Below, in pieces: positions 11,615-49,600 of a stretch of DNA of 64,000 nucleotides. Both the position numbers and the translations under genes were made by a program. Below the pieces are notes generated by a model. That model was not told the origin of the DNA and did not search any database. It saw only the letters and a program-made list of their open reading frames with translations. Position 1 is the first letter of the stretch. Each line of letters starts with the position of its first letter. The stretch is taken from assembly GCA_036874045.1 (NCBI GenBank), contig CM072335.1, positions 12,110,001 through 12,174,000 on the forward strand, written 5' to 3'. This DNA is from Cymodocea nodosa. Taxonomy: Eukaryota > Streptophyta > Magnoliopsida > Alismatales > Cymodoceaceae.

Positions 11615-13035
11615 ACAAACTTGTTTGATTTTTTCTTATGCCTATGTTAATAAATTATCTCAGAAGTAAACAAACAACCTTTCACACAAATTAGATATTA
11701 AGTCCAAGTTGTATTTTAACTGCAAGTGCACAGTATATATTGTATTTGTGTGCAAGTACAGGTCGATCTCATAGAGATTGAGTAAGAATTGTGTACTGTT
11801 TCGATTTTTATATTGGAGTTTATATGTGTTCGGTTAAGCACTCTATTGAGTTACAGTTAACACAATGGACTTAGTTCGTGGAGTTATGGTTAACCCAATC
11901 GACTAACCTCGTGGACTTAAGGTTAACTCCACGAGCCTATCTTTCGAGTTAAATACTGTTATTTATAGAGGAATTCGATCAACCATTGGGTGGTTTTATA
12001 GAATATAAATAACATCAATTAAGCTCTTTAATGTTAGTTAATATTAGATTTGTCATTAAGCAACACTAACATTCAGATATTTCAAACAGTAACCATTAAA
12101 ATATTTAAGTATTTAGGACGATTCAATTTTAGTAAATAATAAAACTATTTCCTATTTTCTGAATCAAATAAACATAAAACATTCACAATACTGACAATGA
12201 TAACATTAATCACGATACAATACAAACAATATAACACTTTAATACTAAATGTAAACACATATAATTTGTTGTTTTTGGTATTTTTGTTTTGATATGTTCT
12301 TGAAGATGAGCGAAAGGTGAAATGTAAAAATCTCTATCAACAGTAAAAACTTCCGTCACTACATGTGACGCGATTACACTACTGAAAACTTAATCACTTA
12401 CAATCTTGCCTCCTCTTCTTATAGAATCACGAATCAAGAATTGTAAGATGATCTCCTCTTTAGCATACTGACATCAACCCGAAACCAAGGCTAAAAGCTT
12501 TACGATCTCCTGAGATATGAGTCAATGCTTGGGGAAAATGACTTCCCTTCCTACGATGCAATCACTTCTTACAGTGGTTGTCAGTCACCATGTTTGGCTT
12601 GGAATCAACCCGATATCCAGAAAGTATCCTCACAGACCTCCGATGGTTGGTGATTTTGGTGGTGGTGTGGAGCTTTAGGGAACTTCTAACGTTTCCTGCA
12701 GTTAGTGTGGTTCACCTACACACACACTTCTTTATATTTCTCCTCTTCTTTTAGTAATAACTACTTTTGCTTAAATGATCGGTTGAATTTCCTTCATTTA
12801 TATCAACGATAGTGATTTCTTCTTTATTCCACAAGTGAATTCCTATGTGATATGTGCAATCGTGGTTTTCCTTTGAATTTCCTATTTCTACAATTGCTAT
12901 AATGGCATATTAGAAAATAAATGATCCATGGAATTAGTGTAACTCAACAGACTTACTTTGTTGATTTAACTATAAAACACGTGTAATAAAGAAATAACTT
13001 ATAAGCTTAAAATACTAACACAACACGTTACCTTA
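11615..13035 (-). repeat. LTR fragment, family A, minus orientation
   Basis: It is the reverse complement of the right half of the A-family LTR and collinear with 62380-63790, including the TGCAAGTGCACA stretch (about 11720), the CTCCGATGGTTGGTGATT stretch (about 12636) and the GGCATATTAGAAAATAAATG stretch (about 12903). Homology to the other A copies ends near GCGTTACCTTA-like text at about 13030. Confidence 0.8.
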
Positions 13036-13145
13036 AAACAGGAACCACGATGCACATTGCAAGACACGTTCTTACAACGAGATTTATTCACTTTATGGAT
13101 GTGCATTATATATATAAAACAGAATGTTATTTACGAGTTACCAGC
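13036..13145. repeat. Shared block with a TATA-like core
   Basis: This stretch recurs nearly unchanged as the reverse complement at about 60640-60755. It contains CATTATATATATAAAACAG, a good TATA-box match, so it is probably an LTR promoter block. The peptide readable through it (13050-13256) is conserved only because the DNA is. Confidence 0.6.
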
Positions 13146-13284
13146 ACTTTTAAAAGAAAGGAGAATGCGTTGGAGGACCTGGAAGGAGAAGCAACTGATT
13201 CAACTTCATCCGACAATAAATATTTATTGAATGGAAAGCTTCAAACTGGTATGTAATTAATCTTCTGCTATTTATTTATGAGCA

Positions 13285-14620
13285 CATGGACCCGTTCTCT
13301 AAGTACTAAGCGATTAGTAAGAACACCTACCCAGGAATTCTCATCGCAGAGGAGTACTAAAAAATTTCTTGAACTGAACTTTAATGAAATTCTTTAGGGT
13401 GTAGCTAATCTTTCTTTAAAAGAGAACACAAAAATGGCTGCTCCAGTAGAAAAACCATTAGGAGAGATTCTGTATCCTGAATTAGTTGATCAACCTTCTT
13501 GTATTTGATTGCCAAACTTTGAGGGAGATAGGTTTGAATTGAAATCTAATTATATTAGTTAATTGCCACATTTTCATGGATTAGAAAGAGAGGATGCCTA
13601 TTATTTCCTTAGAGAATTTAATAAAGTTTGTCAAATGATGAAAATGCCGAACATGAGTATAGATGCTAGTAAACTTAGATATATCCCTTTTTCTTTAAAA
13701 AGACAGTTAAGAGATGGTTATATACTCTATCGCCTGATTCAATTTCTACATGGACTGAATTTTGCTCTGTTTTTCTGGAAAAATATTATCCAACACATTA
13801 AACTATTAAAAAGAAGAAAGAAATATTAATGTGTAGCCAAAAACAGGGTGAATCATTTTGGAAATACTTTGAAAGATTTAAAGATTTATTGACTAAATGT
13901 CCACATCATGCAATGAGTAAGGCACAATTAATAGGTATAATTTATGAAGGCATAGATGTTTCAACAAAATCTTTATTAGAATCTACTTGTCAAAATGGAT
14001 TTTTAAAGTTATGTAGTAAAGAAGCATGGGCATATTTAGAAAACTTTGCAAAAAGAATTGCACAGTGGGAAAATTCGGTTGAAGCTATTGCAGATAAAAA
14101 AATATTGCCAAGAGGAATGCATGAAATAGATTCAAGTACTATGCTTGAGGTGAAATTAAATGAATTAACAAAGAAAATAGAAGAGTTATCATTAAATTAA
14201 AGGCTAGCAGAAAAGAATGCAAACATAAATGATTTAGATATTATTTATGCTAGAAACCAAAGAGATAACTTGGGAAATTCTTATCATCCTAATTGGAGAA
14301 ATCACCCGAATTTATCTTGGAGAAACAACAATTTTCAGGGAGGAGAAAATATAAATGAGAAGAACATAAGTTATGAAGCATTAATTGAACAAGGATCTAG
14401 AATAGAGAAATTAGAAAAGATAATCCAACAATTAAACAATCGTCTAGATTTTATATTTGAAAATACTGCAATTCAAAATCAGAATAGAAATATACCACTT
14501 AGACAGAAGGAACCAATGGAAGTTAGACCTACTAGAGGATTGCCAATACAAGCAATACCTAACCCTGTCAATAGACCTGTTAATGAAATTGATACCTCTT
14601 CTAGGAGGGTAGCTGAATGA
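13285..14620 (+). mobile_element. Athila-type gag region (fossil)
   Basis: Translated pieces show the family hallmarks in order. They are LPHFHGLEREDAYYFLREF near the front, the CSQKQGESFWKYFERFKDLL and CPHHAM stretch in the middle (13829-14200), and a late YHPNWRNHPNLSWRNNNFQ stretch (14270 on) typical of Athila/Tat gag. The tail is a coiled-coil-like RIEKLEKIIQQLNNRLD segment. The region is broken in a few places. Confidence 0.8.
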
Positions 14621-14696
14621 AGCAGTATAACTGAAGCAACTATCTATATGTATATATATATTTATTTTTAGTTAATAGTATCGTAGAGTTAGTCCT

Positions 14697-14729
14697 TAAC
14701 TCAACGGACTAATTTAGTCCGTTGAGTTA
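14697..14729. repeat. 33-bp perfect palindrome (16-bp arms, 1-base centre)
   Basis: TAACTCAACGGACTAA (14697-14712) and its exact reverse complement (14714-14729) flank a single T. It belongs to the TAACTCAACGG/CCGTTGAGTTA phrase family seen in the LTRs, and lies 85 bases before the F-box start codon. Confidence 0.9.
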
Positions 14730-14771
14730 TGCCTTAACTCCACGAGGGTGTGCAGTAGTTATGTTAATTGT

Positions 14772-14805
14772 TTGTCTCTACTAAATTTTTGTTTGTGTTA
14801 TACAG
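14772..14805 (+). promoter_or_regulatory. Splice-acceptor-like site before the F-box ORF
   Basis: A branch-like CTACTAAAT, a T-rich tract and TACAG (AG at 14804-14805) lie 9 bases upstream of the F-box ATG. Athila/Tat relatives are known to splice downstream ORFs, so this could deliver a subgenomic F-box mRNA. The sequence cannot show whether it is used. Confidence 0.45.
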
Positions 14806-14814
14806 AATCGACAA

Positions 14815-15933
14815 ATGGACTTGATGCAATTACCATTGGATGCACTAAGGGAAGTACTGAGTAATTTATCAGCTAAAGATCTGTGCAGGCTGTGTTGTGT
14901 ATCAAAGGAAATTAAAGACTGTATTGAAGAAAAATATTTTCAAGGACTACAAGCTGTAAAAATGACTAAGATTAGAGATGGATTTATATGGAGGTCATTT
15001 AATCGTAGTTCAAATACCCATGAATATCTGGCTATGGAAGAAACTATTGGAATTCCACCCAATACATTAGAAGGTATAGATCATATAATGGGGATAGATG
15101 AAGGATTAATCATATACAGGACGAGACCAAGGTATGCAAGTTTATTATTACCTGATATTTTAATAAGAAATCCTATAACAGGAGAAGAATGGAATATAGG
15201 AAGACCTAATAGATTTGAAGTACCAACTGTAAATTGTGGATCGACTTTGATTTTTTCTGATAAAAATTCTGTAATTCCTGAAAAATTATATTATTGGAGA
15301 CCTACAAGAAATTGGGGTGAAGATTTACACTTAAGTGTGTACAACTTTCTGAATAGATCTTGGAATGAAAATATTATGATATATCTGGGACGGAAATCAT
15401 TAATTAACCAAACAAATGTCATACTTGATGGATATATATATCTAGTCACAGATATATCAATAGCATTTGGATCTGATTTATACATAGTGAGCATAGACAG
15501 TTATGATGAATATATAGAAATTTTACCTATATCGAGAGAAATAGCTAAACCATCATCTAAAGAATTTAATAAAATTCAAATAGGAATGTGGTATAATGAT
15601 GAAGATGATCCTACTTTATGTCTAATAAGATGGTGGGATGAATTGATGAAATTTCAAATATGGATTATGAAAGACATAAATGAATGGAAGTGGGAAGAGG
15701 AATATATTGAAATACATGTAGAAATAGAAACTACTACATTACCCTGGAATCAAAAAGCATCCCTTTCTACATTTCATATCATTAATGGTAATATACTTGT
15801 ATTTGGAATTTATAATATATTACATGTTTACAAATTAACAAGTAACAAGAACTGCATTAAAACAGAATTAATATTAAGAAGAACTATGCCTAAAAAGTTT
15901 GCTTGGACTGATACATTTATTCCTACATTTTAA
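14815..15933 (+). CDS. F-box protein with F-box-associated C-terminal region, inside a retroelement
   Basis: An uninterrupted 372-codon ORF without introns. Residues 5-45 form an F-box (LPLDALREVLSNLSAKDLCR, then CCVSKEI), the domain that docks on Skp1/ASK in SCF ubiquitin ligases. The rest reads like a plant F-box-associated domain: LIRNPITGEEW at 116-126, WIMKDINEWKW at 283-293, and a hydrophobic GNILVFGIYNILHVYKL strand region at 325-341. The ATG has a strong context (ACAAATGG). A palindrome and a splice-acceptor-like site lie just upstream. It sits between an Athila-type gag and the element's 3' noncoding region and LTR, where pol would be expected. It is more A+T-rich than the AHL gene and is intact while the adjacent gag is broken. 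A chance intronless host gene trapped between repeats is the alternative. The substrate is unknown. Confidence 0.85.
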   Translation: MDLMQLPLDALREVLSNLSAKDLCRLCCVSKEIKDCIEEKYFQGLQAVKMTKIRDGFIWRSFNRSSNTHEYLAMEETIGIPPNTLEGIDHIMGIDEGLIIYRTRPRYASLLLPDILIRNPITGEEWNIGRPNRFEVPTVNCGSTLIFSDKNSVIPEKLYYWRPTRNWGEDLHLSVYNFLNRSWNENIMIYLGRKSLINQTNVILDGYIYLVTDISIAFGSDLYIVSIDSYDEYIEILPISREIAKPSSKEFNKIQIGMWYNDEDDPTLCLIRWWDELMKFQIWIMKDINEWKWEEEYIEIHVEIETTTLPWNQKASLSTFHIINGNILVFGIYNILHVYKLTSNKNCIKTELILRRTMPKKFAWTDTFIPTF

Positions 15934-16940
15934 TCATGTTCTTAAACTATGATTTTGTGTGTTTAATGTTGTGTATTCTACGCTATGTTTAGAAAAAAGA
16001 AAAAAAAAAAATTTGAAGTTTTCATGTTTATTTTATAAAAAAAAACAAAACAAAATATCAATCCAATTTGTTAGTATCTGTTCTGGGAAACCAATTGGCT
16101 TGCTTGTGAGCCACCAAAGGCATAGGAGCCTGGGTTCCACACAAGACACTAATTTATTAATATCTGTTAAGTGTTATTTTGTTTTATATTTTGCTTTTAT
16201 TTGTGAGTGAAAAGTTTTTCAGAATCAAAAATCTAAATATGCAGAAGGAGATACAAATGAAACAAGGTATGTAACTAATTACTCATCCTGAATTTAAATC
16301 AATAAAACTGTATTCATGCCTGCTACAATTACTGTACTTATTGTCAAATCTTTTACATTAAGGACAATGCAAAATGTAGGTATAGGGGGGAGGTAATTAA
16401 AGTAACAGCCATGTAAGTTTGTTAATTAAAGGAAATTGAAAAATGGTACTACAAAGTTTTGAGGAAATTGAAAATTTTTATGAACTTGCTGTAACTATCA
16501 GATAATTGAGACTATAAAATTTATAAACTACTGTAAAATTTATAAACTATAACTGCTTGAATGTTATATTTAGAAGGCTATATAAGATGCTATAGAATTT
16601 ACTATTTATGCAAATCTAGATATAGTATCTTATGTTTTTTTTTTCTGAATTTCATGAGTTTAACAATTTCACGATTTTAAAATGAAATCAGAATGCTTAA
16701 TAAAAAAAATTATCTGAACTCCTGAAAGAGCTGAGATGTGAATTCTAGATTAAATGAAGCATATATGATGAAAGATACATTTAATTTGACTGATTGAACT
16801 TGTAGAATGATTTATGTGTAGATCTTATTAAACTACAGAAAAACTATGAGCTTATTGTTATGGATTCATATTTTCATTAAATGATAGAAGCAAGACTATA
16901 TGAGATTGGTGATTACTGCATCTATATTAATGAAATACAT
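15934..16940 (+). other. 3' noncoding region of the F-box element
   Basis: A-rich runs and a GGACAATGCAAAATGTAGGT stretch precede a purine run at 16383-16393 (TATAGGGGGGA), a phrase typical of Athila/Tat elements near a polypurine tract. No coding is seen. Confidence 0.55.
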
Positions 16941-19020
16941 ACATATACAATATGTGATTAATGTTTTGTTTTGTGTTTGTAGTTTGATTGAAAAAAAGAA
17001 AAAGAAAAAAAAAAGGGAAAATTTTGAGAGTTTATTGACTTATTTGATCACGAGCCTTTTGTACTTGAGCAGATAGGTATGTAAGGATTGTTGACCTAAA
17101 AAAGGACTCTTGAAATCTGGCAACCTAAGATCCTGATCAGATCTAGGATTGTTGATTGAAAGTTCATTACATGAGTACATTAGAAAGCTCTTGTATGATT
17201 CAAGCTTATCAAATTAGCTTTTAATGAAAAAAAAAAGAGAAAAAAAAAGGGAAAAAAAAAAACATATACTATTCTGAAAAGATACAAGTGTTTTGTGAAA
17301 TACAGATATCTTATGAATCGAGTATATTTTCTGTTATCTAGAATTGCTGTAATATGAATCTAGAATTGACTTTTGAAGTTGTTTAAGGGAGATACAATTC
17401 TTTATTCTACTTGTCTTAATCATATTGAATTGGATTGTACTTTGATTCGTATGTTGTTGAAATTTCTTCTAGAAATCTTATTGGAAAATTCAGGATAACA
17501 GATGATGAAAAGAAGAACAAACGATAATATAATTAACACCTATGTGATGATGATATACTTTGTATGTAATTTGCATATATTCTAAGTATATTTGTAAGTT
17601 GATTACTAAAACATACAGAATATATTTTTATGCTAAACAGAAGAAAAACAAAGGGGAAGAATTAATTCTAGCACTTTTTGAAAGACTAATTAATTAGATC
17701 TTAGTTTGCTAAGGGACTAGCAAAATTTAGGTATGGGGGAAGTGTTTAGAATGAAAAAGTGCATATTATTAACGGTTAAATGATGGTTAATTACATAATA
17801 TTTAGCTTATCATATGAGAATTAAGCCATTATGTTATAATTGCACTGTTATATGCTTTAATAGAAGAATCTGCTTACTTTTGGGAATTAATGTTAATTTA
17901 GTACATTTCTGAACTATCGATAAGTTGCAAGCTGTGAAATTCTTAAGTATCCAAATTTTCTGATATTTCGGATAGTTATGTTTAATATATCGAACATATA
18001 CAGTATGTGATTAATGTTAAAAAAAAAAAAAAAAAACTTTGAGAGTTTATTGACTTGTTTGATCACGAGCCTTTTATACTTAAGCAGATAGGTATGTAAG
18101 GATTGTTGACCTGAAAAAGGACTCTTGAAATCTGGCAACTTAAGATCCTGATCAGATTTGGGATTGTTGACTAAAAGCTCGTTGCATAGATACATTAGAA
18201 AGCTCTTGTATGATTCAAGCTTATCAAATTAACTTTTAAAGTACAAAAATACATATACTGTTCTGAAAAGATACAAGTGTTTTGTGAAATACAGATATCT
18301 TTTGAATCGAGTATATTTTCTATTATCTAGAATTGCTAAAATATGAATCTAGAATTGACTTTTGAAGTTGTTTAATGGAGATACAATTCTTTATTCTACT
18401 TGTCTTAATCATATTGAATTGGATTGTACTTTGATTCGTATGTTGTTGAAATTTCTTCTAGAAATCTTATTGGAAAATTCAAGATGACAAATGATGAAAA
18501 GAAGAATAAACAATAATATAATTAACACCTATGTGATGATGATATACTTTGTATGTAATTTGCATATATTCTAAGTATATTTGCAGGTTGAAGAGGAGAA
18601 AACAATGTTAAAACAGATTACTGAAATATACAGAATATCTATATAATAATACAAGTTCTTATGTTGAATAGAAGAAAAAAGGAAGAATTAATTCTAGCAC
18701 TTTTAGAAAGACCAATTAATTAGATCTTAGTTTGCTAAGAGACTAACAAAATTTAGGTATGGGAGGAGTGTTTAGAATGAAAAAGTGCATAATATTAACG
18801 GTTAAATGATGGTTAATTGCATAATATTTAGCTTATCATATGAGAATTAAGCTATTTTGTTATAAGTGCACTATTATATGCTTTAATGAAAGAATCTACT
18901 TAATTTTGGGGAATTAATGTTAATTTAGTGCATTTTTGAACTGTCGTTAAATTGCAAGCTGTGAAATTCTTAAGTATCCAAATTTTCTGTTATTTCAGAC
19001 AGTTATGTTTAACGTATCGA
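16941..19020 (+). repeat. Direct duplication, about 1.05 kb x 2, spanning PPT and LTR start
   Basis: Copy 1 (16941-17993) and copy 2 (17994 to about 19020) both begin with an ACATATACA(A/G)TATGTGATT stretch. They share an A-rich run, the TTTGATCACGAGCC word, the CAGATAGGTATGTAAGGATT word and the GGTATGGG(G/A)G(G)A tract. Each then carries the first roughly 250 bases of the A-family LTR (starts at 17743 and 18769). Only copy 2 continues into a full LTR. By eye the copies differ by a few percent plus small indels. Confidence 0.85.
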
Positions 19021-19105
19021 ATAGTTATGCTTAATGTACTGAAGAGTTATGTTTAAATTACCAAACAGTTATGTTTAAAAAAAATATTTTATTATTTCCT
19101 GAAGT

Positions 19106-19565
19106 ACACGTGTCGAAACCATAATGTATGACTTTAGTGGACTTTCGATGAGTTATCTCTAACTATCCGAAATTGTAGTTGGGCATCGGATAGTTATATG
19201 TGTAACTCTCTGAAATCTCCTTTTATTATAAAACTGTTGATGACACGTGTCATGTTCTAGAAGAATGACTTAAGTGGATTTTCGATGAGTTATCTCTAAC
19301 TATCCAAAATGCATCTAGGCATTGGATAGTTAGACTTGTAACTCTCCAAAATATTTCTTTATTATAAAACTACTGAGTACACGTGTCTTGATCTAGAAGA
19401 TTGACTTAAGTTATATATCAGTGAGTTATCTGTAACTATCCGAAATGCATCTGAGCATCGGATAGTTAAGTTTGTAACTATCCGAAATGCATTTGGGCAT
19501 TGGATAGTTAAGTTTGTAAGTATCCGAAATGCACCTGAGCACCGGATAGTTAAATTTATGCACGT
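19106..19565 (+). repeat. Tandem LTR array: G-box, CTTAAG word, GGATAGTTA hairpins
   Basis: Three units begin with ACACGTGTC at 19106, 19253 and 19379 (spacings 147 and 126). Units then carry a GACTTAAGTGGATTTTC-like word, GTGAGTTAT/GATGAGTTAT, and TAACTATCCGAAATGC followed by its inverse GCATCGGATAGTTA. One example is TCGGATAGTTA and TAACTATCCGA separated by 6 bases (about 19456-19483). The second G-box lies in a 14-bp palindrome (ATGACACGTGTCAT, 19250-19263). Confidence 0.85.
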
Positions 19566-20702
19566 GTTTTATAGTTAAATCAACGAAGCAAATCCGTTGA
19601 GTTATCTATAACTCTACGGACCATTTATTTTCTAATATGCCACTGTAGCGGTTGTAGGAACAGAATAGTTGGAAGAAAAAAACCACGATCGCACGTATCA
19701 CGTAGGAATTCACTCGTCGAAGGAAGAAGAAATCATCATCGTTGATATGAATGAAGGAAATCCAACCAATCATTCAAGCAGAAGTAGTTACTATTGAAGA
19801 AATATAAAAGAAAAGAAGAAAAAAAGTAGGGGGGTGGTGGCTGATGGATGTGGCCAATGTGTGCAGAGGAGGATCACCGAGCTTTCTACAGGCAGCGTCA
19901 GCAATTCTCTGAAGTACCACACCAACCAACTCCACCACCACCATAATCACCAACCATCGGAGGTCTGTGAGGATACTTTCCTGATGTTGGGTTGATTCTG
20001 AGCCAAACACAATGCTTGATAATCACTGTGAGGAGTGATCGCGTCGCGGGAAGGGAAGCCATTTTCACCAAGCACCGACTCATATCTTAGGAGATCGTAA
20101 AGCTTCTAGCCTTGGCTTTGGGTTGATGCCTGTATGCTGAAGAGGAGATCATCTTACAATTCTGGACTCGCGATTCTATAAGGAGAGGAGACAGAATTGT
20201 AAGTGGTTTAATTTTCAGTAGTGTAATCGTGTTGTATGTAGTGACGGAAGTATTTACTGTCGACTAAGATTACTTTACATTTCACCTTTCGCCCATTTTC
20301 ATGCTCATATCAAAACAAAAATACCAAAAATAACTTATCTGTGTTTGTATTTAGGTATTGTATTGTTTGTTTGTATCGTGATTAATGCTATCTTTATGAG
20401 TGCTGTAAATGTTTTATGTTTGTTTTAGTTTTATAGTTTACTGAAATTGGTTCGTTCAATAGACTTAAAGATTTTAATAGTTACTGTTTGAATTATCTAA
20501 ATGTTAGTATTGCCTAATGATAAATCTAGTGTTTACTAACATTAAAGAGCTTAATTGATGTTATTTACAATCTATGGAACCGCCCAATGGTTGGCCAAAT
20601 TCCTTTATAAATAGTAGTATTAAATAGGAAAGACAGGCTCATGGAGTTAACTCAAGTCCACAAAGTTAGTTCGTTGAGTTATGGATAACTCAATGAACTT
20701 AG

Positions 20703-20730
20703 TCCGTTGAGTTAACTGTAACTCAACGGA
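20703..20730. repeat. Perfect 12-bp stem hairpin in family A LTR
   Basis: TCCGTTGAGTTA (20703-20714), loop ACTG, then TAACTCAACGGA (20719-20730). A second, nearly perfect hairpin of the same phrase lies just left of it at about 20663-20692. Confidence 0.9.
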
Positions 20731-20983
20731 GAGCTTATTGAATATATAAATTTGATTGTCAAAAATGAAACAGTGCGCAATTCTTAAGCAATTCCCTATG
20801 GGATCGACCTATACTTACACACTAATACAATAGACATTGTGCACTTGCAGTTAAAATACAAATTGGAATTAATATCTTATTTGTGTAAAAGATTGTTTGC
20901 TTACTTCTAAAAAGGAATTTAGTGATATAGGTATAAAGATAAATTAACTAAGTAAAAACAAAAGTTAACAAATCCAAGTTTCT

Positions 20984-21002
20984 CTAGCGCGTTGCTGGGT
21001 AA
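20984..21002 (+). other. Degenerate tRNA-Asp type primer site, family A
   Basis: CTAGCGCGTTGCTGGGTAA matches the Athila/Tat site in layout. A 3' LTR should not be followed by a primer site. Its presence implies that 18769-20982 may also have served as the 5' LTR of a further, lost element, or that elements recombined here. Confidence 0.6.
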
Positions 21003-24000
21003 CCAATCAAGTTTTCTAGTGCCGTGCTGAAGATCCAAATAGGGCACTTCAAGTCACAATGTAAGGCTCCCAAGAAAGACAGCAAAGGAAATGAATTAGA
21101 AGGAGTAGGTGCAAATGTTGTCTCCTACGATTCAAATGATGCCCAAGTATGCTATGTGGACAGTTCCATTGACTCATGTGTACTGGACTTAGGAGCTTCA
21201 TTCCACACTCTCTATAGGAAAGATTTGTTGTACAATTATCATGCAACTCCTATGAAGAAAGTATACCTAGCTAACAACACAAGCTTGAATGTGTTGGGAA
21301 AAGGAGAGGTACACATTAAAACAAAAGAAGGGATATGGAAATTGCAAAAAGTTAGATATGTTTCTGATCTTGCAAAGCAATTAATTTCCATAAGTTTCCT
21401 AAATAATGATGGTTACCATATTGCTTTTGGTGCAAGCAAATGGAAGGTAACCAAAGGTGCAATAATTATTACCTCAGGACAAAGGACTGACACCTTATAT
21501 TTGAAATCGAATCAAGATGACATTATTGCAGCAATTAGTGATACTGAAGACACTGACTTATGGCATAAAAGATTGGGACACCTCAGTGAGAATGGACTGA
21601 AGATTTTAATGACAGAAGGGAAAATCCCTAAGTTGAAGAATGTCAATTTAGGGATATGTGAGGACTGCATTGAGGGAAAGTAGAAGAAAGTCAACTTTGC
21701 CAAGACTCCTCATGATCCAAAGTCACAAAAATTGGAGCTGGTTCACATAGATGTGTGGGGGCCTACCCTTATCAGTTCTTTAGGAGGTGCTCTCTATTAA
21801 GTCACATTCATTGAATCCAAGATGTACAAGCACAGAGAAAGTGTAGATGAACAATAGTTTGAGCTTTAGTCTGAAAGTACTATTGAGATCAGTCTAGATA
21901 ATGATGTTGAACAACTTCAGAAGGAACCTGTAGAAGAAATTCAACTTCCAAAGGCTGAACAACAAGAACATCTAGATGATCAAGAAGATGAAGTTGTCAC
22001 CAGATAACTTAGAAGATCTGGAAGGGTTTTCAAACAACCAGAAAGGTATGTACCATCATTCAATTATCTATTACTGATAGATGATGGTGAACCTAAAACA
22101 TATCAGGAAGCAATCTGTGCAAGTGATGCACATAAATGGGAGTTAGCAATGAAAGAAGAAATGAAGTCCTTGGAGAAGAATAAAACGTGGGAACTAACTT
22201 CATTGCCAGAAGGAAAGAAAATCCTAGGAAACAAGTGGGTGTTTAGGATGAAAGAACAACCAGATGGCAGCAAGAAATATAAAGCCAAACTTGTAGTTAA
22301 GGGTTTTCAACAAATTTAAGACATAGACTATAATGAAGTATTTTCTCTAGTTGTGAAGATGAATACCATAAGAATAGTCTTAAGTATTATTGCTATAGAA
22401 AATTTGTTCTTGGAGCAAATAGATGTAAAGACAGCATTCCTACATGGAGATTTGCAAGAAGAACTCTATATGATGCAGCCAGAAGGATTTGTAGTAACTA
22501 GCAAGAAAAGAAAGATAGTATGTAGATTGCTGAAAAGTATGTATGGTTTGAAGCAAGCACCAAGACAATGATACAAGAAATTTGATACATTTATTTGTAC
22601 CCTAGGCTTCAAAAGATGCGATACAAACTATTACTGCTACATAAAACTGTTTAATGATTGCTTCATTATTCTACTGATTTATGTAGATGATATGTTAATT
22701 GCTTATTCAAGTATGGAACAGATTAAGCAATTAAAGAGACAACTGTCAAAAGGATTTGACATGAAGGATATGGGAGAAGCCAAGCAAATCTTGGGTATGA
22801 GAATCATTTGAGATAGAATGGCAAACACATTGAGATTAAATCAGAAGAAGTACTTAGGAGATTTAATATCTCAAATGAGAGGAAAATTGAACTCCCTCTT
22901 GGACCCTAATTCAAGTTGTCTAAAGATCAGTTAGCTAAGATTGAAGAAGAAAGGACAAAAATGTCTAGAATACCATATGCTTCAGTAGTAGGAAGTTTGA
23001 TATATGCCATGATATACACAAGACCTGATATATCTCATGTAGTGGGAGTGGTTAGTAGATATATGGCAGATTCAAGAGCTGAGCATTGGTCTGCTGTACT
23101 GTGGATACTCAGAAATCTTAGATATTCCCTAGATGTAGATCTAAACTTCAAGAAAGGACCAGTTGAATTGATTAGCTACTGTGATGCTGATTTGGGAAGA
23201 GAGTTGGATAAAAGTAGTACTTTAGGCTATGTTTTCTGCATAGGAAGTACTGTAATAATCTGGAGATCCAAGCTGCAAAGTATTGTTGCACTCTTGACCA
23301 TAGAAGCTGAATATGTTGTAGTTGCAGAGGCAGCTAAAGAAAGAATCTGGCTAGAGAATGTACTAGTCGAATTAAGGCATAAATAGAAAAGAAGCATTCT
23401 ATTCTGTGACAATCAAAGTGCCATTTATTTAGCTGAAAATATGAAGTTTCATTCAAGGTCCAAGCATATGAGAATGATGTTTCATTTCATAAGGGAAGAG
23501 ATAGAGTAGAATAGGTTAGATCTGTAGAAGATTGCTGGTGCTAAATGCTACAGACATGTTAACTAAAGTTCTGAATCTGTAGAAATTAAGGCTTTGTATG
23601 GCCTTAATTGGTCTCCTAAATAATTAAGAAAAAGAAGATGTGGAGTTGATGTTTATTTGAGCTACTATTGCAAATAATCTGTAAGCCAAGAGTAGAGATT
23701 GTTTTTTCTTTGATCATTGTGTTAGACTCCAAGTGGGAGATTGTTAGGGCAAGTAGTACAGGTGTGGAGTATGCCACAAGAAGTCTAAGTTCAATCAGAA
23801 GCTTGCTAGCAGTAAGTCTCCGACAAATTTATGATTTTGGAAGGTTATCAGGTCAAAGTATCCGAAAATAACATTTTAGTCAAAAGGCTTTGAGCTAACT
23901 ATTCGAAAGTCAGGAGATTTTGGAGGGTTACTAGTTGTAACCATCTGGAATGACTTAAAGGACGCTTAAGTGGATGTTCGGATAGTTATGAAGCTAAGTA

Positions 24001-37152: not shown

Positions 37153-37321
37153 ATGGACGGTATGCACCCCAGCAGCAGCGGTGGCGGTAGCTCCTCCTCT
37201 TCCCGATATCTTCACCACCTCCTACGTCCGCCACAATCACAGCAGCAACCGCCACCACCGTCGGACTCCCCCAAAGCATCTCCTGACAAAAACCCAAAGC
37301 CTGATCAATCTGCCGGAGTAG
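37136..37321 (+). other. Overlapping upstream open frame at the AHL start
   Basis: An ATG at 37136, 17 bases before the AHL ATG and in another frame, opens a 61-codon frame that overlaps the AHL start. Its context (GAGATGA) is weaker than the AHL one. If in the mRNA, it could reduce AHL translation. Confidence 0.4.
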
Positions 37322-38037
37322 GCCAGCAGGAACCCCCATCGACCTCCACGAACCCCAGCCGTCGTCCACGGGGTCGTCCTGCCGGTTCCAAAAACAAACC
37401 AAAGCCACCCATCTTCATCACCCGTGACAGCCCCAACACTCTGCGATCGCATGTCCTAGAGGTCAACAGTGGGTCGGATGTGGTGGAATGCGTCTCCGGG
37501 TACGCTCGCCGGCGGGGGAGAGGTATTTCCATTCTCAGCGGTGGAGGGGTGGTGTCTAATGTTTCTCTCAGGCAGCCAGGGTCGGGGCTGACGGTAGCCA
37601 CGCTGAGAGGAAGGTTCGAGATCCTGTCGCTGACGGGGACGGTTCTTCCTCCTCCGGCGCCTTCCGAAGCTGGTGGTCTGACGGTGTACTTGGCGGGAGG
37701 GCAGGGACAGGTGGTGGGAGGGAGCGTGGTGCCACCACTGGTGGCGGCGGGGCCGGTGGTGCTGATGGCTGCGACGTTTTCTAATGCGGTGTACGAGAGA
37801 CTGCCATTGGAAGCGGAGGAAGAAGAGGGGGCGGTGACGCCAGCAGCGGCAGCGGCAGCGGCAGCGGGGCAAGGACAGCAGCAGCAGGCGACCGCATCGC
37901 AGTCGTCTGGTGTTACAGGCGGAGACGGCGGTGGCAGCGGCGTGTCTGTCTATAACTTGGGCGCAAACATAGGGAATTATCCATTCCCTGGGGATAATTA
38001 CGGATGGGGCGGTGGTGCGCCTAGGCCACCATTTTAA
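37153..38037 (+). CDS. AHL: AT-hook motif nuclear-localized protein, clade A (type I)
   Basis: A 294-codon intronless ORF. After a Ser/Gly/Gln/Pro-rich N-terminus, residues 70-84 hold a type I AT-hook ([15 protein letters not shown]; core R73-G74-R75-P76) that binds the minor groove of A+T-rich DNA. A PPC domain follows at about 96-220, with [16 protein letters not shown], the GRFEIL core (153-158), [19 protein letters not shown] (174-192) and AYERLPLE-like YERLPLE (214-220). PPC domains trimerise and recruit partners, and the family represses growth and flowering genes in the nucleus. The C-terminus has Glu, Ala and Gln runs and ends YGW...RPPF, as in several clade A members. The ATG at 37153 has an ideal context (GCCGCCATGG). 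G+C and codon use are much higher than in the surrounding repeats. The exact paralogue cannot be fixed. Confidence 0.95.
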
Positions 38038-40681: not shown

Positions 40682-41825
40682 TGTTTGGACCAAATGGCTC
40701 ACCAAAAGGGGGGGTGAATGGTGACCTATATGTTATTTTAACAATTTCTAACTTAATTGATTAATCAATATGCACAAATATTAAACAAGTGTAGAAACAT
40801 GCACAACAAAAATATAAATAAGAAACACAAGGAAATTTTAGGTGGTTTACCAACTCGGTTAGTTTACCCCAAAGGATCACTTGGGCTTCACTAAGTACTT
40901 CAACACTTACACACATTTACTTTCAAGTTGAAGCAAGAACCAACCATTTACTTGAGTTTTTGGTCATAACTTAAACCAACATTTCCTAGAAGTTTTCAAG
41001 TCAAAACTTCAGCAAACCAACCTAGAGCTTTCAGGTCAAAGCTCAACAACCAACCTTGTGCTTTAAGGTATAAACTCACTAACCAACATAATGTGTAGCT
41101 TTCAGGTTGAAGCCGTGAACTAATGATCCTTCTTGGATCAAACTTTTAGCGCAATTGGGGAGCTTTGAGAATCTTATTTTGAATTCTACTTTCAACTTGT
41201 TCTCTCTGTATTGAATTTGAAATATACTTTCTGTAATGGAAGAGGATTTGCAATGTATATTCTATATCTCTCTCTTAAATATATGTTGAATGATCTGGTT
41301 GTATTTATATTTGTGATTCCAATGATTATATTATTTATCAACGATTTTATTCTACTGTACTTTAATCTTGACAGTCCTATAAATAGAAAGTTACCATTTG
41401 ATATACTATTGAATGCTTTTTTGCCAATCTTCTTTCAGGTCGTTAAGTTATTTCTAACTTAACGAGTTGCTCTTTCTTGTATTTTGCAAATACACATTGA
41501 GTTATGCTAACTCAACGAGTTCTATCATGTGAATTTCCTTGCTATGTATGTGATGCCAATCCTTCATTATTTTTTCTCAGATCGTTAAATTGTTGTTAAC
41601 TTAACGAGTTGCTTTTCCCTTTTACTCGTTAACTTAATAAGTTGTTCTTCCTTGTACTCATTAACTCATTGAGTTCTACATGAGTTTTTGCTAACTTAAT
41701 GAGTTTGGCATGTGACTTCTATTTGACTTTTTAAGAATACATTGAGTTGTGCTAACTAAATGAGTTGCATTGCCTTTAAGCTTGTAACTCAATGAGTTGT
41801 TCTTTCTATATTTACATGTTGAGTT
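40682..41825 (-). repeat. LTR fragment related to family E, minus orientation
   Basis: It starts TGTTTGGACCAAATGGCTCACC, the inverse of the family E LTR end, followed by GGGGGGTGAATGGTGA and a series of CAACC...AAGCTTCAGG-like words shared with 42890-43190. From 41440 on it carries repeated AACTTAACGAGTTG and AACTCAATGAGTT phrases. It is interrupted at 41825 by the element starting at 41826. Confidence 0.7.
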
Positions 41826-43356
41826 TATTAGGACCTTAGTATTTTGATAATGCAAAAACTTGTGTGAGGAAACAAATTGTATTTCACAGATAAGATAGTG
41901 CAGTAAAAGAGCAGAAGGTAGATAAGTTGATTCAGATAGTTCAAAATTTGCCGCAAGAGATAAACAAGAAATCAGAAGTTTATCAGGCTTAACTATCCAA
42001 AAGAGATAAATTTTCAATGAGTTACTAGGCTTAAGTATCCAATGAGTTAGCTTTAAGTAGTAGAATCACCATCAGACGGTTAGAAAATTAACTATCTGAA
42101 ATTATAATGCCTTTGGAGGGTTTAAAGATAGTTGGCTGAATGATTAAAGAGTTAAAGCGCTAACTATTCAGAAGCTCAAGGAAAATTGGAAAGTTAAGAA
42201 GGCTAACTATTCGAAACTTAAGTTACTAAATTTCCTACGTGTAGAAATCCAAACAGAAGCTTAAAGAGATTTTTCGAAGAGTTAGAAAGTTAACTATCTT
42301 AAAAATAAGAAGTTTCAGAAGGTTATAGATTTAACTATCCAAAACTTAAGTCATCCTATTATGCACATGTAGAAATAAGAAGACAGTAGTTGGAAGCTTA
42401 AAAGAAGAAAATCAAAGAGTTACTGTAGCTAATTATTCGATAGTCAAGAACATTTCGGTGAGCTACAGTTACAAGTATCCGAATTTAAGACACGTCACGT
42501 GTATGACTTAAATCTCATGTGACAAAAGGACTTAAGTGGATTTTTGGTGAGTTACAAACATCCTTCGGAAAGTTACATACCTAACTATCCAAAAGTCTAA
42601 GAAAATCGGAAGGTTATCTTGAAACACCTTTCCAAACGGTAATTTACCATATTTAGACTTGCAAATCTGTAAGTATAGTAGAATAAATCCATTGAGGAGA
42701 AAATATGATCGTTGGATTTACAAGTATTTATACAAACAAATCATTCAATATTCAGTAGAGCTAACAAGTGAGATTACACAGACAATCACATATAGAGATA
42801 TAGTATACATTGTAGATTAACTACTGTTACAGAAGAATGCTCAATCTAGATTAACTACAATAAGGAATAGATTGAAAGCTGGATCTACAAGAAGATTCTT
42901 AAAGCTCTCTAAGTGTTGAAAGTCTGATCCAAGAAGGATCATTTGGTTCCTAGCTTCAACCTTAAAGCTTCATTCAAGTTGTTGGTTTGAGTTTCGACCT
43001 GAAAACTAAAGAGGTTGGTTTTCTGAAGTTTATACTTAAAAACTTCTAAGTGTTGGTTAGAACTACGACTTGGAAGCTCAAGGGGTTGGTTCTTATTTCA
43101 ACCTGAAAGCAAGTGTTTGTAAGTGTTGAAACACTTAGTGAAGCCCAAGTGATCCTTGGGGGTGGACTAGCCAAGTTGGTGAACTACCTAAAATTCCCTT
43201 GTGTTTTTTGTTTATATTTCCACTATGCATGTTTAATCTTCTATTTAACATCTATGAAAATTGATTAATCAAATTAGTTAGTAAAGTTGGTAAAAAGTTT
43301 TAAAGTACTCTTAGATCACCATTCACCCCTCTCTAGTAAGTCATTAGGTCCTAACA
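41826..43356 (+). repeat. 5' LTR, family E
   Basis: TATTAGGACC start (TGTTAGTACT in the 3' copy) and CCTAACA end. It contains GTGAGTTAC and CTATCCGAA-type phrases (about 42000-42600), CACGTCACGTG (about 42492) and the Sirevirus-like ACCATTCACCCC stretch near the end. Confidence 0.9.
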
Positions 43357-43357
43357 A

Positions 43358-43370
43358 TTGGTATCAGAGC
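43358..43370 (+). other. Primer binding site (initiator tRNA-Met type)
   Basis: TTGGTATCAGAGC one base after the LTR end. Confidence 0.9.
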
Positions 43371-43409
43371 AGGTTGATCTCTTTTTTATAGATTTAACTA
43401 TCTGAAATC

Positions 43410-44925
43410 ATGGTATCTTTTCATAGAGAGGGTCAAAACATCCTTCGTCCTCCCCTGTTTGATGATATTAACTATAATTACTGGAAAAATAGGATGGGAT
43501 GTTTCCTTAGAAGCTCAGATGTGAGTCTATGGAAAATGGTGGTTCTAGGAACACCTATTCCACCTAGTCATGAGGATGACTGGATTGAGGAGGATGAGAG
43601 AATCATCCAAATGGATGCTTGAGGGCTGAATATTATTTACTGAACAATATAATAAAGTTTCAGCTTGTAAATTTGCTCACGAGGCTTGGAACACTCTTCA
43701 AATAACCTTTGAAGAAACTAGCTAAGTGAAAGACACAAAAATCAGTATTTTACTTAGAAAGCTTGAATTATTTAAAATGCTTGATAATGAAACAATTACT
43801 GATATGTTTTCTAGATTCACTAAAATTATTAATGGCTTAAGAGGTTTGGAAAAGGAATTTTCTATCTATGAACAGGTGTAGAAAATCCTTAGAAGCTTAA
43901 TTGTAGAATGGAAGCAAAAGTCTACATCAATACAAGATTCCAAAGACCTCAACAAATACTCAGTAGAGGATTTGATGGGCAATTTACTAGCCCATGAAGT
44001 TCAAATGAGAGAATGGAGAGATGAGGAAGGAAGTGCTAAAAAGAAAATAGAAACGAAGAAATAACTAGCCTTTCCATCAACTCAAGAACTTCAAAGCTCG
44101 GATGATGATGAAGTTGTGCTATTAGCTAGAAAATTCAGAAAATGGATGAAGAAAATGAACCAAGCCAACACATCAAAAAGAATTGCTCCAATATGCTTTA
44201 AATGCAAGAAGCAAGGACATATACAACCTGATTGTCCACTACAACTAGAAGAAGAAAAAGAAATGAAGAAGAAAAAGAAGAGCTACAAAAAGAAAATAGG
44301 ATTGAAGGCTGCTTGGGATGACAGTAGTTCTTCTAATAGCTCATCCAATTTAGATGAAGAGGTACTAGTAAATGTGTGCTATATAGCACAAGAGTTATGT
44401 TCTACTTCATCTCAAAGTGATTCTGATGTAGACAATGATAATCTAGATGTAAATATTCTTTTGTCTACTACTGACAATTTATATGTTAAATGCAAAAATT
44501 ATAAAAAGTAAATTAAACATTTAACTACATGTTTAGAAGAAGCATATACTAAACTTGAAAATTTGCATGTTGAAAATAGAAAATGCAATAATGATGAATT
44601 GATAAATGAAAATGAAAATCTAAAATTTGAAATTATTGATCTGAAAAATATTGTGCATAAGTTTATAATGGACAAAATGGATTGAACAAAATCATTAGTT
44701 CACAAAGACATAGTTTAAATAGGTTTGGCCTAGGGTATGCTACTCCACAGGAAATACCCTACTATGGTGGTGTTATCCGATCTTATAGAGATGATACAAT
44801 AGTGTTTACCATCAAAAGAAGATCTAGATTAATGTGACTGCCAAAAGGCAATAAATTAAATGTTGTCAAGACTAACACTTATGGACCCAAGAAAGTATGG
44901 GTACCAAAATCTATATCTGTTTGAA
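43410..44925 (+). mobile_element. Sirevirus-type gag region, family E (fossil)
   Basis: Motifs in order: RPPLFDDINYNYWKNRM, a UBN2-like middle, KKKSYKKK-like basic stretches, a CCHC knuckle (CFKCKKQGHIQPDC, near 44190-44235), an acidic Ser-rich stretch, and a GPKKVWVPKS end at about 44880-44920. That end corresponds to the GPQQHWVPRKS end of gag in the element at 49601-60505. Broken in a few places. Confidence 0.85.
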
Positions 44926-45389
44926 TTGCAAAATTGTATTATTTAAGTGGGAGCAGTTAGTTTATAGTTTCAAATTATTATCTGCAAATGACCAAAATCT
45001 GAAGATCAATGGAATGATCAATTAGAAAAGGTTGAAAATTTGAAAATCAGTCATGGGAGTAACTATTTGGTATTACAGGAGGCACCATAAATTGGTAGGA
45101 AGTGCTACACATAGATTGAGTGGAAAACATGCCTAAAATCATGATATTCAAAGAGAGCAAAATCTGCAACAGCTAGAAACAAGTATATAGAAAAGAGAGC
45201 AACAGCTAGACTACAGTTACAAATTGCTTTCTGCATATGTTTTGAAGGAATCTCTTGAAGAGAAATTAGAAGCTAAATGATTGAGAATTATTTATGATGT
45301 TTTTGATTAACAATTGATACCTAATTTAGTAGGTATCATAAATGTCATTTTGCAAAACAGGTGCAACAAATCTATCTACAAGGAAAAAC

Positions 45390-46280
45390 ATATAAGTAAG
45401 GGGAGAACCTACTATATGAAGGGAATTCAGAATGTTGCTTCAGTGCAAAAAGAAAGTATATAAAGAGGGCATGCTTATAGGGGGAGAGCCTATAGCTTGC
45501 TATTAAAAATCAGAAAACCTCCATACAGATAAGGGGAGAGCATGTGGCAACAACTACAAATATTAATTGCATATTTATAAATTGCTACATTAATAATTAG
45601 CATTTCACTATTTTTTTTTCAGTTTTTACAAATGATGTAGTAAATAAACGAGACAAAGGAAGAAATACCAAAAACCAAGAAAGCAATTACTGACTTCTTA
45701 GAAATTGATATGTCAACAAATGGCATCAGACAAGGATTGAGGAAATTGACACTTCAATTGATATTGGGCTTGAATAAGAAAGAAGAAAAGTAGTACAACA
45801 TCAAAGGGAAAGAATAAAATATACTGCAATGATGGAAATATCTCAACAATTGATATTAGCTCACCAACAGTTAACATTTGATGCACAATCAAAATTGGTA
45901 TTCGAAGATATTGATGTAATTAATTCTTTCAACATTTGATATTAAATAGGATTATGGAAATTAGAAAATTGTTATGACATCAGATATTACATCTTGGTAA
46001 AAAGAAGAGAAATATGGCAGCTATTTTAGCAAAAGAAAGTTATGGAACTCCTTTTATCTAATGACAAAAAGGGAGAGAAGAATAAAGAAAATTACATAGA
46101 AGGCAAGGGGAGTATTCCCAACACACAGTCAAGGGGAGAAATTAACTCTAGTGTATTGTATTCACTGTAAATCTTTGCTTTACTTAGTTTCTGTGTGACT
46201 AAATGTATAGAAACAATCTAGGGAGTGAAATACATGTAATTTAATGTAAAGGATTTTGTCATTATCAAAAAGGGGGAGAT
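45390..46280 (+). other. Series of polypurine tracts before the family E 3' LTR
   Basis: AAGGGGAGAA, AGGGGGAGAG, AAGGGGAGAG, AAAGGGAGAGAA, AAGGGGAGT, AAGGGGAGAA and finally AAAGGGGGAGAT occur in sequence (about 45397 to 46280). Only the last touches the LTR. Multiple purine tracts are a known Sirevirus trait. Confidence 0.75.
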
Positions 46281-47808
46281 TGTTAGTACTTTAGCATTTT
46301 GATAATGCAAAAACCTGTGTGAGTAAATAAATTGTATTTCACAAATAAGACAATGTAGTAAAAGAGTAGAAGGCAGATAAGTTGATTTAGATAGTTCAAA
46401 ATTTGTTACAAGAGATAAACAAGAAATCGGAAGGTTACCAGGCTTAACTATCTAAAGGAGATAAATTTTCGGTGAGTTACTAGGCTTAAGTATCCGATGA
46501 GTCAGCTTTAAGCAGTAGAATCACCATCGGATGGTTAGAAAATTAACTATCTGAAATTACAAAGCCTTCGAAGGGTTTAAAGATAGTTGGCTGAATGATT
46601 GAAGAGTTAAAGCACTAACTATTCGGAAACTCAAGGAAAATCGGAAAGTTAGGAAGGCTAACTATCCGAAACTTAAGTCATTAAATTTCCCATGTGTAAA
46701 AATCTAGATAGAAGCTTAAAGGGATTTTCAGAGAGTTAGAAAGTTAACTATTTGAAAAACAAGAAGTTTTGAAAGGTTACAAATTTAACTATCTGAAACT
46801 TAAGTCATCCTATTATGCATATGTAGAAATAAGAAGACAACAATTGGAAGTTTAAAAGAAGAAAATTGGAGAGTTACTGTAGCTAACTATCCGATAGTCA
46901 AGAACATTTCAATGAGTTACAATTACAAGTATCCGAACTTAAGACACGTCATGTGTATAACTTAAATCTCACGTGACAAAAGGACTTAAGTGGATTTTCA
47001 ATGAGTTACAAACATCCTTTGGAAAGTTACACAACGAACTATTCGAAAGTCTAAGAAAATTGAAAGGTTATCTTGAAACACCTTTTCAAACGGTAACTTA
47101 CCATATTTAGACCTGCAAATCTGTAAGTACAACAAAATAAATCTGTTGAGGAGAAAATATGATTGTTGGATTTACAAGTATTTATACAAACAAATCATTC
47201 AATATTTAGTAGAGTTAACAAGTGAGATTACACAGACAATCACATATAGAGATACAATATATATTGTAGATCAACTACTGTTACAGAAGAATGCTTAATT
47301 CAAATTAACTACAAGGAATAGATTGAAAGCTGGATCTACAAGAAGATTCTTAAAGCTCTCTAAGTGCTGAAAGTTTGATCCAAGAAGGATCATTTGGTTC
47401 ATAGCTTCAACCTTAAAGCTTCATTCAAGTTGTTGGTTTGAGTTTCAACTTGAAAACTCAAGAGGTTGGTTTTCTGAAGTTTATACTTGAAAACTTCTAA
47501 GTGTTGGTTAGAGCTACGACTTGAAAGCTTAAGGGGTTGGTTCTTACTTCGACTTGAAAGCAAGTGTTTGTAAGTGTTGAAACACTTAGTAAAGCCCAAG
47601 TGATCCTTGGGGGTGGACTAGCCAAGTTGGTGAACCACCTAAAATCCCCTTGTGCTTTTTGTTTATATTTCTGCTGTACATGTTTAATCTTCTATTTAAC
47701 ACCTGTGAAAACTGATTAATCAAATTAGTTAGTAAAGTTAGTAAAAAGTTTTAAAGTACTCTTAGATCACCATTCACCCCCACTCTGGTAAGCCATTAGG
47801 TCCTAACA
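46281..47808 (+). repeat. 3' LTR, family E
   Basis: TGTTAGTACT...GGTCCTAACA, collinear over its full length with 41826-43356. Confidence 0.9.
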
Positions 47809-47986: not shown

Positions 47987-49600
47987 ATGTGAGTAAACAT
48001 TGGATTTATCATTAAGCATACTAACATTCAGATAATTCAAACAATAACCATTAAAATCTTTAAGTATTTTGAACGAACCAATTTTAGTAAACTATAAAAC
48101 TAAAACAAACATAAAACAATCACAATACTGACAAAGATAACATTAATCACGATACAACACAAACAATACAACACTCAAATACAAAATACAAACACAAAAA
48201 TAGTTTTTGGTATTTTTGTTTTAATATGAACATGGAAATGGGTGAAAGGTGAAATGTAAAGTAATCTCAATCAATAGTAAATACTTTTGTCACTACATGT
48301 GATGCAATTACACCACTGAAAATTAAACCACTTACAATTCTGTCTCCTTTCCCTGTAGAATTGCGAGTCCAGAATTGCAAGATGATCTTCTCTTCAACAT
48401 ATAGGCATCAACCTGAAGCCAATGCTAGAAGCTTTACGATCTCTTGAAATATGAGTCGGCACTTGGTGAAAATGGCTTCCCTTCTCGCGATGCGATCACT
48501 CCTCAAAATGGTTGTCAGGCATTGTGTTTGGCTCGGAATCGACCCGACATCACGAAAGTATCCTCACAGACCTTCGATGGTTGGTGATTATGGTGGTTAT
48601 GGTGGTGGTAATGATGGTTGGTGTGGTACTTTGGAGAATTGTCGATACTGTTTGTAGAAAGCTCAGTGCTCCTCCTCTATACACACTGGCCGTACCCATC
48701 GATCACACACACTTTACTTCTTTTTCATCTTTTCTTTTATATTTCTTTAGTGGTAACTACTTCTGCTTGAATGGTCGGTTGGATTTCCTTCATTCATATC
48801 AACGACGATGATTTCTTCTTCCTTCGACGAGTGAATTCCTGTGTGATACGTGCGATCGTGGTTTTTTTCTTCTAACTATCTGTTCCTGCAATCGCTATAG
48901 TGGCATATTAGAAAATAAATAGTCCGTGGAGTTACAGATAACTCAATAGACTTTCTTCGCTGATTTAACTATAAAACACATGCATAAATTTAACTATCCG
49001 ATGCTTAGAAGTATTTCAGATACTTACAACTTAATTATCTGATGCCTAGATGCATTTCGGATACTTACAAACTTAACTATCTGATACTCAGATGCATTTC
49101 GGATAGTTATAGATAACTCACCAAAAATCCACTTAAGTCACTTCCTAGAACATGACACGTGTCCACAACTATTTTATAAATAAAAAGAGATTTCGGAGAG
49201 TTACACATATAACTATCCGATGCTCAGCTACAATTTCGGATAGTTATAGATAACTCACCGAAAGTTCACTTAAGTCATGCGTTATGGTTTCGACACGTGT
49301 ACTTCAGAAAATAATAAAATATTCTTTTAAAACATAACTGCTCGGCAATTTAAACATAACTATCCGATACATGTTCGGTTTGTTAAACATAACTGTCCGA
49401 AATATAAGAAAATTCGGATACTTAAGAATTTCACAGCCTGCAACTTACCGACAATTCAGAAATATACTAAATTAACATTACTTCCCCCAATTTAAGTAGA
49501 TTCTTTAATTAAAGCTTTAATAGTGCAATTATAACATAATGGCTTAATTCTCATATGATAAGCTAAATATTATGCAATTAACCATCATTTAACTGTTACT
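47987..49600 (-). repeat. LTR fragment, family A, minus orientation
   Basis: It runs collinear with the inverse of 18790-20540. It includes ATTAATCACGATACAA, CCTCACAGACCTTCGATGG, GGCATATTAGAAAATAAAT, the G-box/GGATAGTTA array (about 48990-49420) and the CATATGATAAGCTAAATATTA end. It is cut at 49600 by the next element, a few tens of bases short of the LTR terminus. Confidence 0.85.

Follow-up and report, generated by a model that had tools for sequence, protein, structure and literature searches.

The 64,000-nucleotide stretch of Cymodocea nodosa DNA analysed here (assembly GCA_036874045.1, contig CM072335.1, positions 12,110,001 to 12,174,000; hereafter the window) probably contains a truncated copy from a large family of Athila-like Ty3/gypsy retroelements, a family that counts a plant-type F-box gene among its own genes, with a spliced-RNA product predicted to act as an adaptor of the SKP1-cullin-F-box (SCF) ubiquitin ligase. 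The copy in the window lacks its 5' part and lies at about 13035-21029 on the forward strand; it was delimited by homology to parts of a complete copy on contig C21 and to the loci L039-L044. F-box proteins couple SKP1, and with it the SCF ubiquitin ligase, to a target, and an element-encoded adaptor of this type, produced from spliced RNA, would be the most likely role of the gene. It should be noted that the affinity to Athila is putative.

Regarding the gene itself, the open reading frame (ORF) at 14815-15933 has 372 codons, is free of stops, and matches the Pfam models F-box (E 3.3e-10) and F-box-like (E 9.4e-6); it follows a gag region that is interrupted by stops, and an earlier note on this DNA had read both correctly. 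The N-terminal F-box domain (PF00646) occurred in all 13 copies scanned, with a best E of 1.3e-10, while the C-terminal part may weakly resemble FBA domains: FBA_1 matched 10 of the 13 copies (best E 0.0077) and FBA_3, weakly, six (best E 0.72). The AlphaFold single-sequence model of the protein had a pLDDT of 33.5, too poor to be used for fold comparison. Sequence searches of the PDB with the F-box protein found no match, nor did those of 5.8 billion protein sequences with the ORF and with the 13 copies; the latter collection may hold few plants, so this result is no evidence of uniqueness. A host progenitor of the element F-box was not found, and the genome search with FBA_1 matched nothing here nor in the control genomes, hence it was uninformative.

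The F-box is borne by a large retroelement family, in hundreds of copies or more. The source genome of the window (374.6 Mb, 28 contigs) was searched with the F-box protein and gave 110 scored matches: besides the window itself (100% identity) there were 109 with identities of 87-93%. Counting the window, 35 of these 110 matches are free of stops. The first-look candidate numbers (4,219, 6,931, 11,917, 4,990, and 6,013, with 6,931 belonging to the F-box protein search) are not used as copy numbers. Thirty loci were fetched from this search (L009-L038, L009 being the window), and in all 30 the gag region precedes the F-box and the 3' noncoding region follows it on the same strand; L024 additionally contains an inverted gag piece. 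The earlier note had proposed an F-box gene built into an Athila-like retroelement, and had set beforehand a search for further copies in the same context as the test of this claim; many were found, and the claim survives.

The reverse search started from the 3' noncoding text alone, and 18 loci were taken from 40 places; the window, two places already on the F-box protein search list, a single partial match, and all places ranked lower were not among them. In 16 of the 18, the F-box is present near full length, with 91-95% DNA identity; as for the other two, L060 has the final 67 F-box bases only, and L054 is devoid of the F-box. A search with the Pfam F-box model was examined at the eight top-ranked of 150 scored loci: seven were related to the window ORF (with identities of 59-82% where they matched, and in some cases partial or rearranged), and the sole one without element similarity, L005, encodes an ordinary host F-box protein, which we take to be HAWAIIAN SKIRT-like.

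The structure of the intact element was defined on the C21 copy, which measures 17.3 kb and has the hallmarks of an LTR retrotransposon: a 5-bp target-site duplication (GAATG) on both sides, two 2.2-kb long terminal repeats (LTRs; TGTTTAG...CAAACA, 127 mismatches over 2,202 aligned columns), a primer-binding site (PBS, TGGCGCCGTTGTCGGGGAA), presumably of the tRNA-Asp kind, and a polypurine tract (PPT, AGGTATGGGGGAAG). Its order is LTR, PBS, zinc-knuckle ORF, protease, reverse transcriptase (RT), RNase H, integrase, acidic ORF, Transposase_32-like ORF, gag capsid, F-box, 3' noncoding region, PPT, and LTR, with protease, RT, RNase H, and integrase following the order of Ty3/gypsy elements (Metaviridae). 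The Pfam matches to RVT_1, RT_RNaseH, rve, and Integrase_H2C2 come from L051 and L045, and the remaining C21 genes were assigned by homology to other copies. The first ORF carries a zinc-knuckle motif (CX2CX4HX4C, seen in L051) and no capsid; zinc knuckle and protease are names that we presume from motifs (for the protease, also from between-copy homology), as Pfam scored neither. The Transposase_32-type ORF of L039 matched PF20167 with E 6.2e-7 and 29.9 bits, under the Pfam cut-off of 45, and the overlapping frame of L049 had no Pfam match though it is 87% like that of L039. A copy on C12 has the same frame, with LTRs that are 94% identical, flanking bases alike at four of five positions, and a partly deleted pol, and L042 has a nested solo LTR flanked by the 5-bp duplication ATCAT.

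As for the capsid, Retrotrans_gag was found directly before the F-box, downstream of pol; in L048, L050, and L051, the three whose 5' end is complete (L051 was not read on its F-box side), no match to the family's own capsid lies between LTR and protease, and the first 256-codon frame of L051 gave no Pfam gag, hence the complete gag 5' of the protease that is typical of Athila was not found. In the earlier note the F-box stood in place of pol, which did not hold: copies with a complete 5' end have protease, RT, RNase H, and integrase, followed by the F-box where checked.

These data bear on a different explanation, by which a host F-box gene was trapped at one place among nested retroelements, as the earlier note had also considered. 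The window is indeed full of nested elements and its copy is 5'-truncated; against this, the context is the same in all the fetched loci, nearly all the noncoding-text places have the F-box, and on C21 a complete copy with LTRs and target duplication surrounds it. This repeated structure refutes the trapping of a single gene, to which we leave practically no probability.

The F-box is 3' cargo of a pol-bearing element and no substitute for pol, because the distances from integrase and capsid confirm the linkage. Starting from 109 scored integrase places, four F-box places lay on the same strand, at 1,017, 5,242, and 5,287 bp and, for the query copy itself, at 5,236 bp. Splice-site patterns, described below, were located from the same integrase places by using 100 of 206 spliced-junction places and 100 of 2,886 donor places, all of these donors being on C1 and C2: 12 spliced junctions were on the same strand, ten of them at 3,549-3,886 bp, and six unspliced donors were on the same strand at 3,520-3,919 bp, with 16 integrase places lying on C1/C2. 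No opposite-strand spliced junction or donor occurred within 8 kb of the 109 integrase places. As for the capsid, the 150 scored places led to eight F-box places on the same strand at 986-1,021 bp, of which one belongs to the query copy and three (C3, C26, and C28) are apparently a single locus that the assembly repeats; of the other capsid/F-box pairs, one is on opposite strands, and one, on the same strand, has the F-box on the opposite side at a distance of 6.9 kb. Integrase and capsid formed one same-strand pair at 3,924 bp and one opposite-strand pair. Regarding the apparently duplicated locus, the capsid and F-box matches on C26, C28, and C3 near 20.89 Mb have identical score and spacing, and C26 and C28 are small contigs, pointing to a possible duplicated assembly.

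The relation between capsid and F-box is clarified by copies that record splicing. In two of the 29 other loci fetched, L027 and L029, the exon end ...CTTCARACTG (with one base changed in L029) runs straight into AATCGACAAATGG; unspliced copies carry intervening text here that starts with GTATGT... and ends with ...TATACAG, meaning that exactly one GT-AG intron was removed. In the window, comparison with these copies places the intron (GTATGT...TATACAG) at 13249-14805 (+), where it encloses the gag capsid region, and both the donor (13249) and the acceptor (14805), which the earlier note does not mention, are intact. It is preceded by a short coding exon at 13231-13248 (+), recognised from L027 and L029, from the sequence, and from the genome-wide junctions, whose ATG has an in-frame TGA directly 5' and which splicing would join to the F-box exon at 14806-15933 (+); the latter, defined by the ORF, Pfam, and the spliced copies, includes the 372-codon ORF, and the spliced frame with 13231-13248 would have 381 codons by hand count. 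Genome-wide, there were 206 spliced junctions and 2,886 unspliced donors, with none for the reversed-pattern controls (up to 3 mismatches). Of 27 unspliced copies, 23 retain the acceptor AG and four have a G to A change.

Since copies with exact intron removal are scattered over the genome, spliced element RNA must have been reverse-transcribed, and its copies multiplied. In a tree of the F-box and 3' noncoding DNA, L027 and L029 fall in separate parts, and the L027 clade (support 1.000) includes L031, which retains capsid text; this suggests that spliced copies arose more than once, although recombination could mimic the pattern. L027 (C15:13157965 region) and L029 (C12:8230643 region) are capsid-less, and the 206 junctions of this kind form a derived class with integrase upstream in at least 12 cases. 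A second splice event, deleting the Transposase_32 ORF in L027, was rejected as its junction does not have GT-AG ends.

As for selection, omega-like ratios of nonsynonymous to synonymous change (N/S) were controlled by substitution spectra and calculated for an F-box-blind set, that is, the 16 copies from the noncoding-text search after exclusion of L054 (no F-box) and L060 (67 bases); the first run, with these two included, gave a ratio of 0.89. In the blind set, N/S was 2.81 for private changes, close to the neutral value of about 2.95, and 1.19 for changes found in at least three copies (Fisher p 0.016, or 0.008 with doubles added). When the more divergent copies were brought in, namely L001, L003, and L006, the tests (L002, L004, L007, and L008 were left out because of their partial F-boxes) gave ratios of 0.51-0.57, or 0.54-0.56 versus the blind set, and stops at 0.25-0.44 of expectation. 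For comparison, the capsid region had a ratio of 0.65 (wrong frames 0.84 and 1.05; 23 of the 29 loci), and the pseudo-frames of the 3' noncoding region had 0.89-1.07 (15-19 of the 29 loci). These values argue, with moderate strength, that the source lineages are constrained while the inserted copies decay freely, the constraint on the F-box being about as strong as that on the capsid. The earlier note had taken the intact ORF as a hint of selection: selection stands, moderately, at the family level, while intactness alone says little, given that three of the 16 blind copies are also stop-free.

The note's other suggestion, a recent capture, was not sustained. Between F-box copies that share this context, the mean synonymous divergence (dS) reaches up to about 0.5 (L001 versus the family; in L001 a nested LTR lies between capsid and F-box), and because of this the capture is judged from divergence to be old relative to the LTR pairs seen.

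An alternative that has to be weighed here is that the F-box was captured by an ancestor and multiplied along as a passenger, with no benefit to the element. This would agree with the stops in 13 of the 16 blind copies, with a constraint that is moderate, and with the precedent of LTR elements that can carry transduced genes, described in passages of PMC7264820 as usually reaching one or few copies. It accounts poorly for the fall of N/S among shared changes, for the ratios and depleted stops of the L001, L003, and L006 tests, for the retention of the splice acceptor in most unspliced copies, and for the persistence of the F-box in its context over the divergence given above, and a mere passenger is therefore considered unlikely.

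Nevertheless, several observations weigh against a constrained, spliced F-box gene of the element. The constraint is moderate: the pairwise omega-like ratio of the blind set is 0.67, with 0.86 and 1.25 in the wrong frames, and single values near 0.7 are weak, since the gag tail has 0.87 in its own frame and 0.68 in a wrong one. Changes in exactly two blind-set copies have an N/S of 2.82 and behave like singletons; the 46 pooled copies give 2.83 versus 1.64, with modest p values (Fisher, 0.038 and 0.034); and the ratio of 0.52 for the top copies (wrong frames 1.02 and 1.14, from 400 of 870 ordered pairs) is biased, these copies having been picked by protein similarity. The high share of blind copies broken by stops, already mentioned, belongs here as well. 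On the side of splicing, the 2,886 donors are counted as matches to the donor pattern, and some of them may have no F-box behind them. Moreover, no donor among the 100 listed, and no spliced place among the 100 listed, comes within 3 kb of any of the 150 scored capsid places; 11 of these 150 are on C1 or C2, the contigs of all listed donors.

Regarding function, an SCF adaptor encoded by the element would work as follows. Unspliced RNA would provide capsid and genome, and spliced RNA the F-box protein, much as env and accessory genes of retroviruses depend on splicing; the N-terminal F-box would bind the host SKP1, and the C-terminal part would deliver a target to the SCF ubiquitin ligase. The gene would have been retained because destruction of the target aids the movement of the element or its continued expression. 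A silencing factor is a reasonable but unproven candidate for this target, and an attractive guess, since silencing suppressors with F-box-like motifs are found in plant viruses, and anti-silencing proteins such as VANC in plant transposons. In its full form, a counter-defence in which spliced RNA alone gives rise to the F-box protein, and this protein condemns a silencing factor of the host to degradation in the manner of polerovirus P0, with splicing as the switch between capsid and counter-defence, is a tentative possibility. The F-box-like silencing suppressors of poleroviruses and similar viruses (PMC6593998, PMC7582759, and PMC6784205) resemble the predicted product of the element in being parasite-encoded adaptors of F-box type; the difference is that those are F-box-like motifs of RNA viruses, whereas here a plant-type F-box protein is encoded in a retrotransposon. 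Instead of a host defence factor, the protein might act on the element itself, through capsid turnover or a limit on copy number: capsid and F-box share one splice unit, hence they would be alternative products, and the capsid-less spliced form itself spread, as its 206 junctions indicate. Such self-regulation is regarded as somewhat unlikely.

Among the known systems, Athila and Calypso resemble this family in the protease-RT-RNase H-integrase order, in the long LTRs, presumably in the tRNA-Asp-type PBS, and perhaps in the Transposase_32-type ORF between integrase and 3' LTR (L039, below the Pfam cut-off); they differ in that here the capsid lies downstream of pol within an intron and is followed by the F-box gene. 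Elements of this lineage have additional 3' ORFs, and Transposase_32 is reported in a sunflower Athila (PMC11728184). In the orchid Ty3/gypsy elements with an m6A demethylase (2-ODD) ORF, a large gypsy element likewise kept a host-like extra ORF through many copies, the domain being other than an F-box (PMC9289625, in part); the screen described there covered 121 genomes and 5 kb either side of RT, while in the C21 copy some 7 kb separate RT from the start of the F-box. Spliced RNA serves to express 3' genes in retroviruses and certain plant elements, and in Bagy-2 and other env-like elements the 3' ORF is also reached through splicing of the element RNA (passages of PMC7264820 and work cited there); that ORF is env-like, whereas here the capsid is within the intron, the product is an F-box protein, and the spliced copies multiplied.

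A precedent for the cargo is in Thlaspi arvense, which has one gene of the F-box family between LTRs as well as an athila family of 1,630 copies (PMC8764390); however, this is a single annotated host gene (LTR-gene), tandemly duplicated, and the passages seen do not tie it to the athila family or call it an element gene. Apart from such single LTR-flanked genes, an F-box as a standing gene of a multi-copy LTR element was not found in the literature searched, which mostly excluded subscription journals. The term F-box has no occurrence in the main texts of PMC9289625, PMC11963269, PMC11728184, and PMC7264820, supplements and figure-only domain names apart, and the parts consulted of PMC7602945 and PMC6035169 mention F-box genes outside the sense of an LTR-element gene. 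LTR retrotransposons with an extra 3' gene are a known kind; the present family is set apart by the F-box as this gene, the capsid in its intron downstream of pol, and the multiplication of spliced copies.

As for the remaining parts of the window copy, the 5' part of the element (LTR, pol, and Transposase_32 ORF) is missing and a minus-strand LTR copy sits upstream; matching sequence begins near 13035, and not at 13280 as the earlier note had it. The broken gag capsid coding region extends over 13434-14620 (+), as defined by Pfam and the sequence, with Retrotrans_gag at 13829-14200 (E 5.3e-7) and no zinc knuckle seen by eye. Downstream of the F-box exon, sequence and copy comparison define the 3' noncoding region at 15934-17742 (+), with its terminal PPT at 17729-17742. 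A tandem duplication (17005-17994 and 18020-19021) includes a second, partial LTR start; according to the window repeat comparison and C21 homology, the first, partial LTR start (TGTTTAG...) is at 17743-17999 (+), and the duplicated 3' noncoding segment is at 18026-18763 (+), with the second PPT (18755-18768) at its end. The 3' LTR covers 18769-21029 (+), with its final bases lost or diverged where Copia-type sequence joins. The noncoding text, both purine tracts, and the LTR from 18769, all on the plus strand, agree with the earlier note; its LTR end at 20982 does not, since comparison with other copies, which also gave the family LTR ends TGTTTAG...CAAACA, extended the match to about 21029, where Copia-type coding text starts. 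A candidate PBS behind the window LTR was dismissed, as the PBS-like text falls inside the LTR end. A palindrome-like motif, AACTCAACGGACT...AGTCCGTTGAGTT, recurs at 14689-14740 and 20640-20740, in the spacer and LTR of the family, and similar text is in the fetched copies.

Elsewhere in the window, a second piece of the F-box element family at 60650-61903 (-) has an LTR start fused directly to the Transposase_32-to-capsid region, with pol missing. A Copia-type element at 49598-60535 (-), with LTRs about 97-98% alike, encloses a fragment matching the 3' noncoding text of the F-box element (53672-54381) and has two ORFs (51098-53173) that appear Transposase_32-like by eye, with no Pfam match. 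A direct repeat pair at 41821-47607, with a spacing of about 4,455 bp and 89-95% alike, probably represents the LTRs of another short element, and a G+C-rich island at 37153-38037 (+) contains an intact ORF, which we take to resemble an AT-hook (AHL) host gene. The Rfam scan of the window gave no matches.

In conclusion, an F-box in a retroelement suggests that the element may steer the protein-disposal machinery of its host. Plant LTR retrotransposons have been described with extra genes, most of them of no known function, and the F-box gives one such gene a clear biochemical class. For gene annotators, the finding is a warning that many apparent F-box genes in the source genome are transposon genes. 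With its signs of constraint, its genomic record of splicing, and its large size, this family makes the role of an extra ORF testable, and with it the question of whether transposons exploit the ubiquitin system of the host to escape its control, as viruses do.

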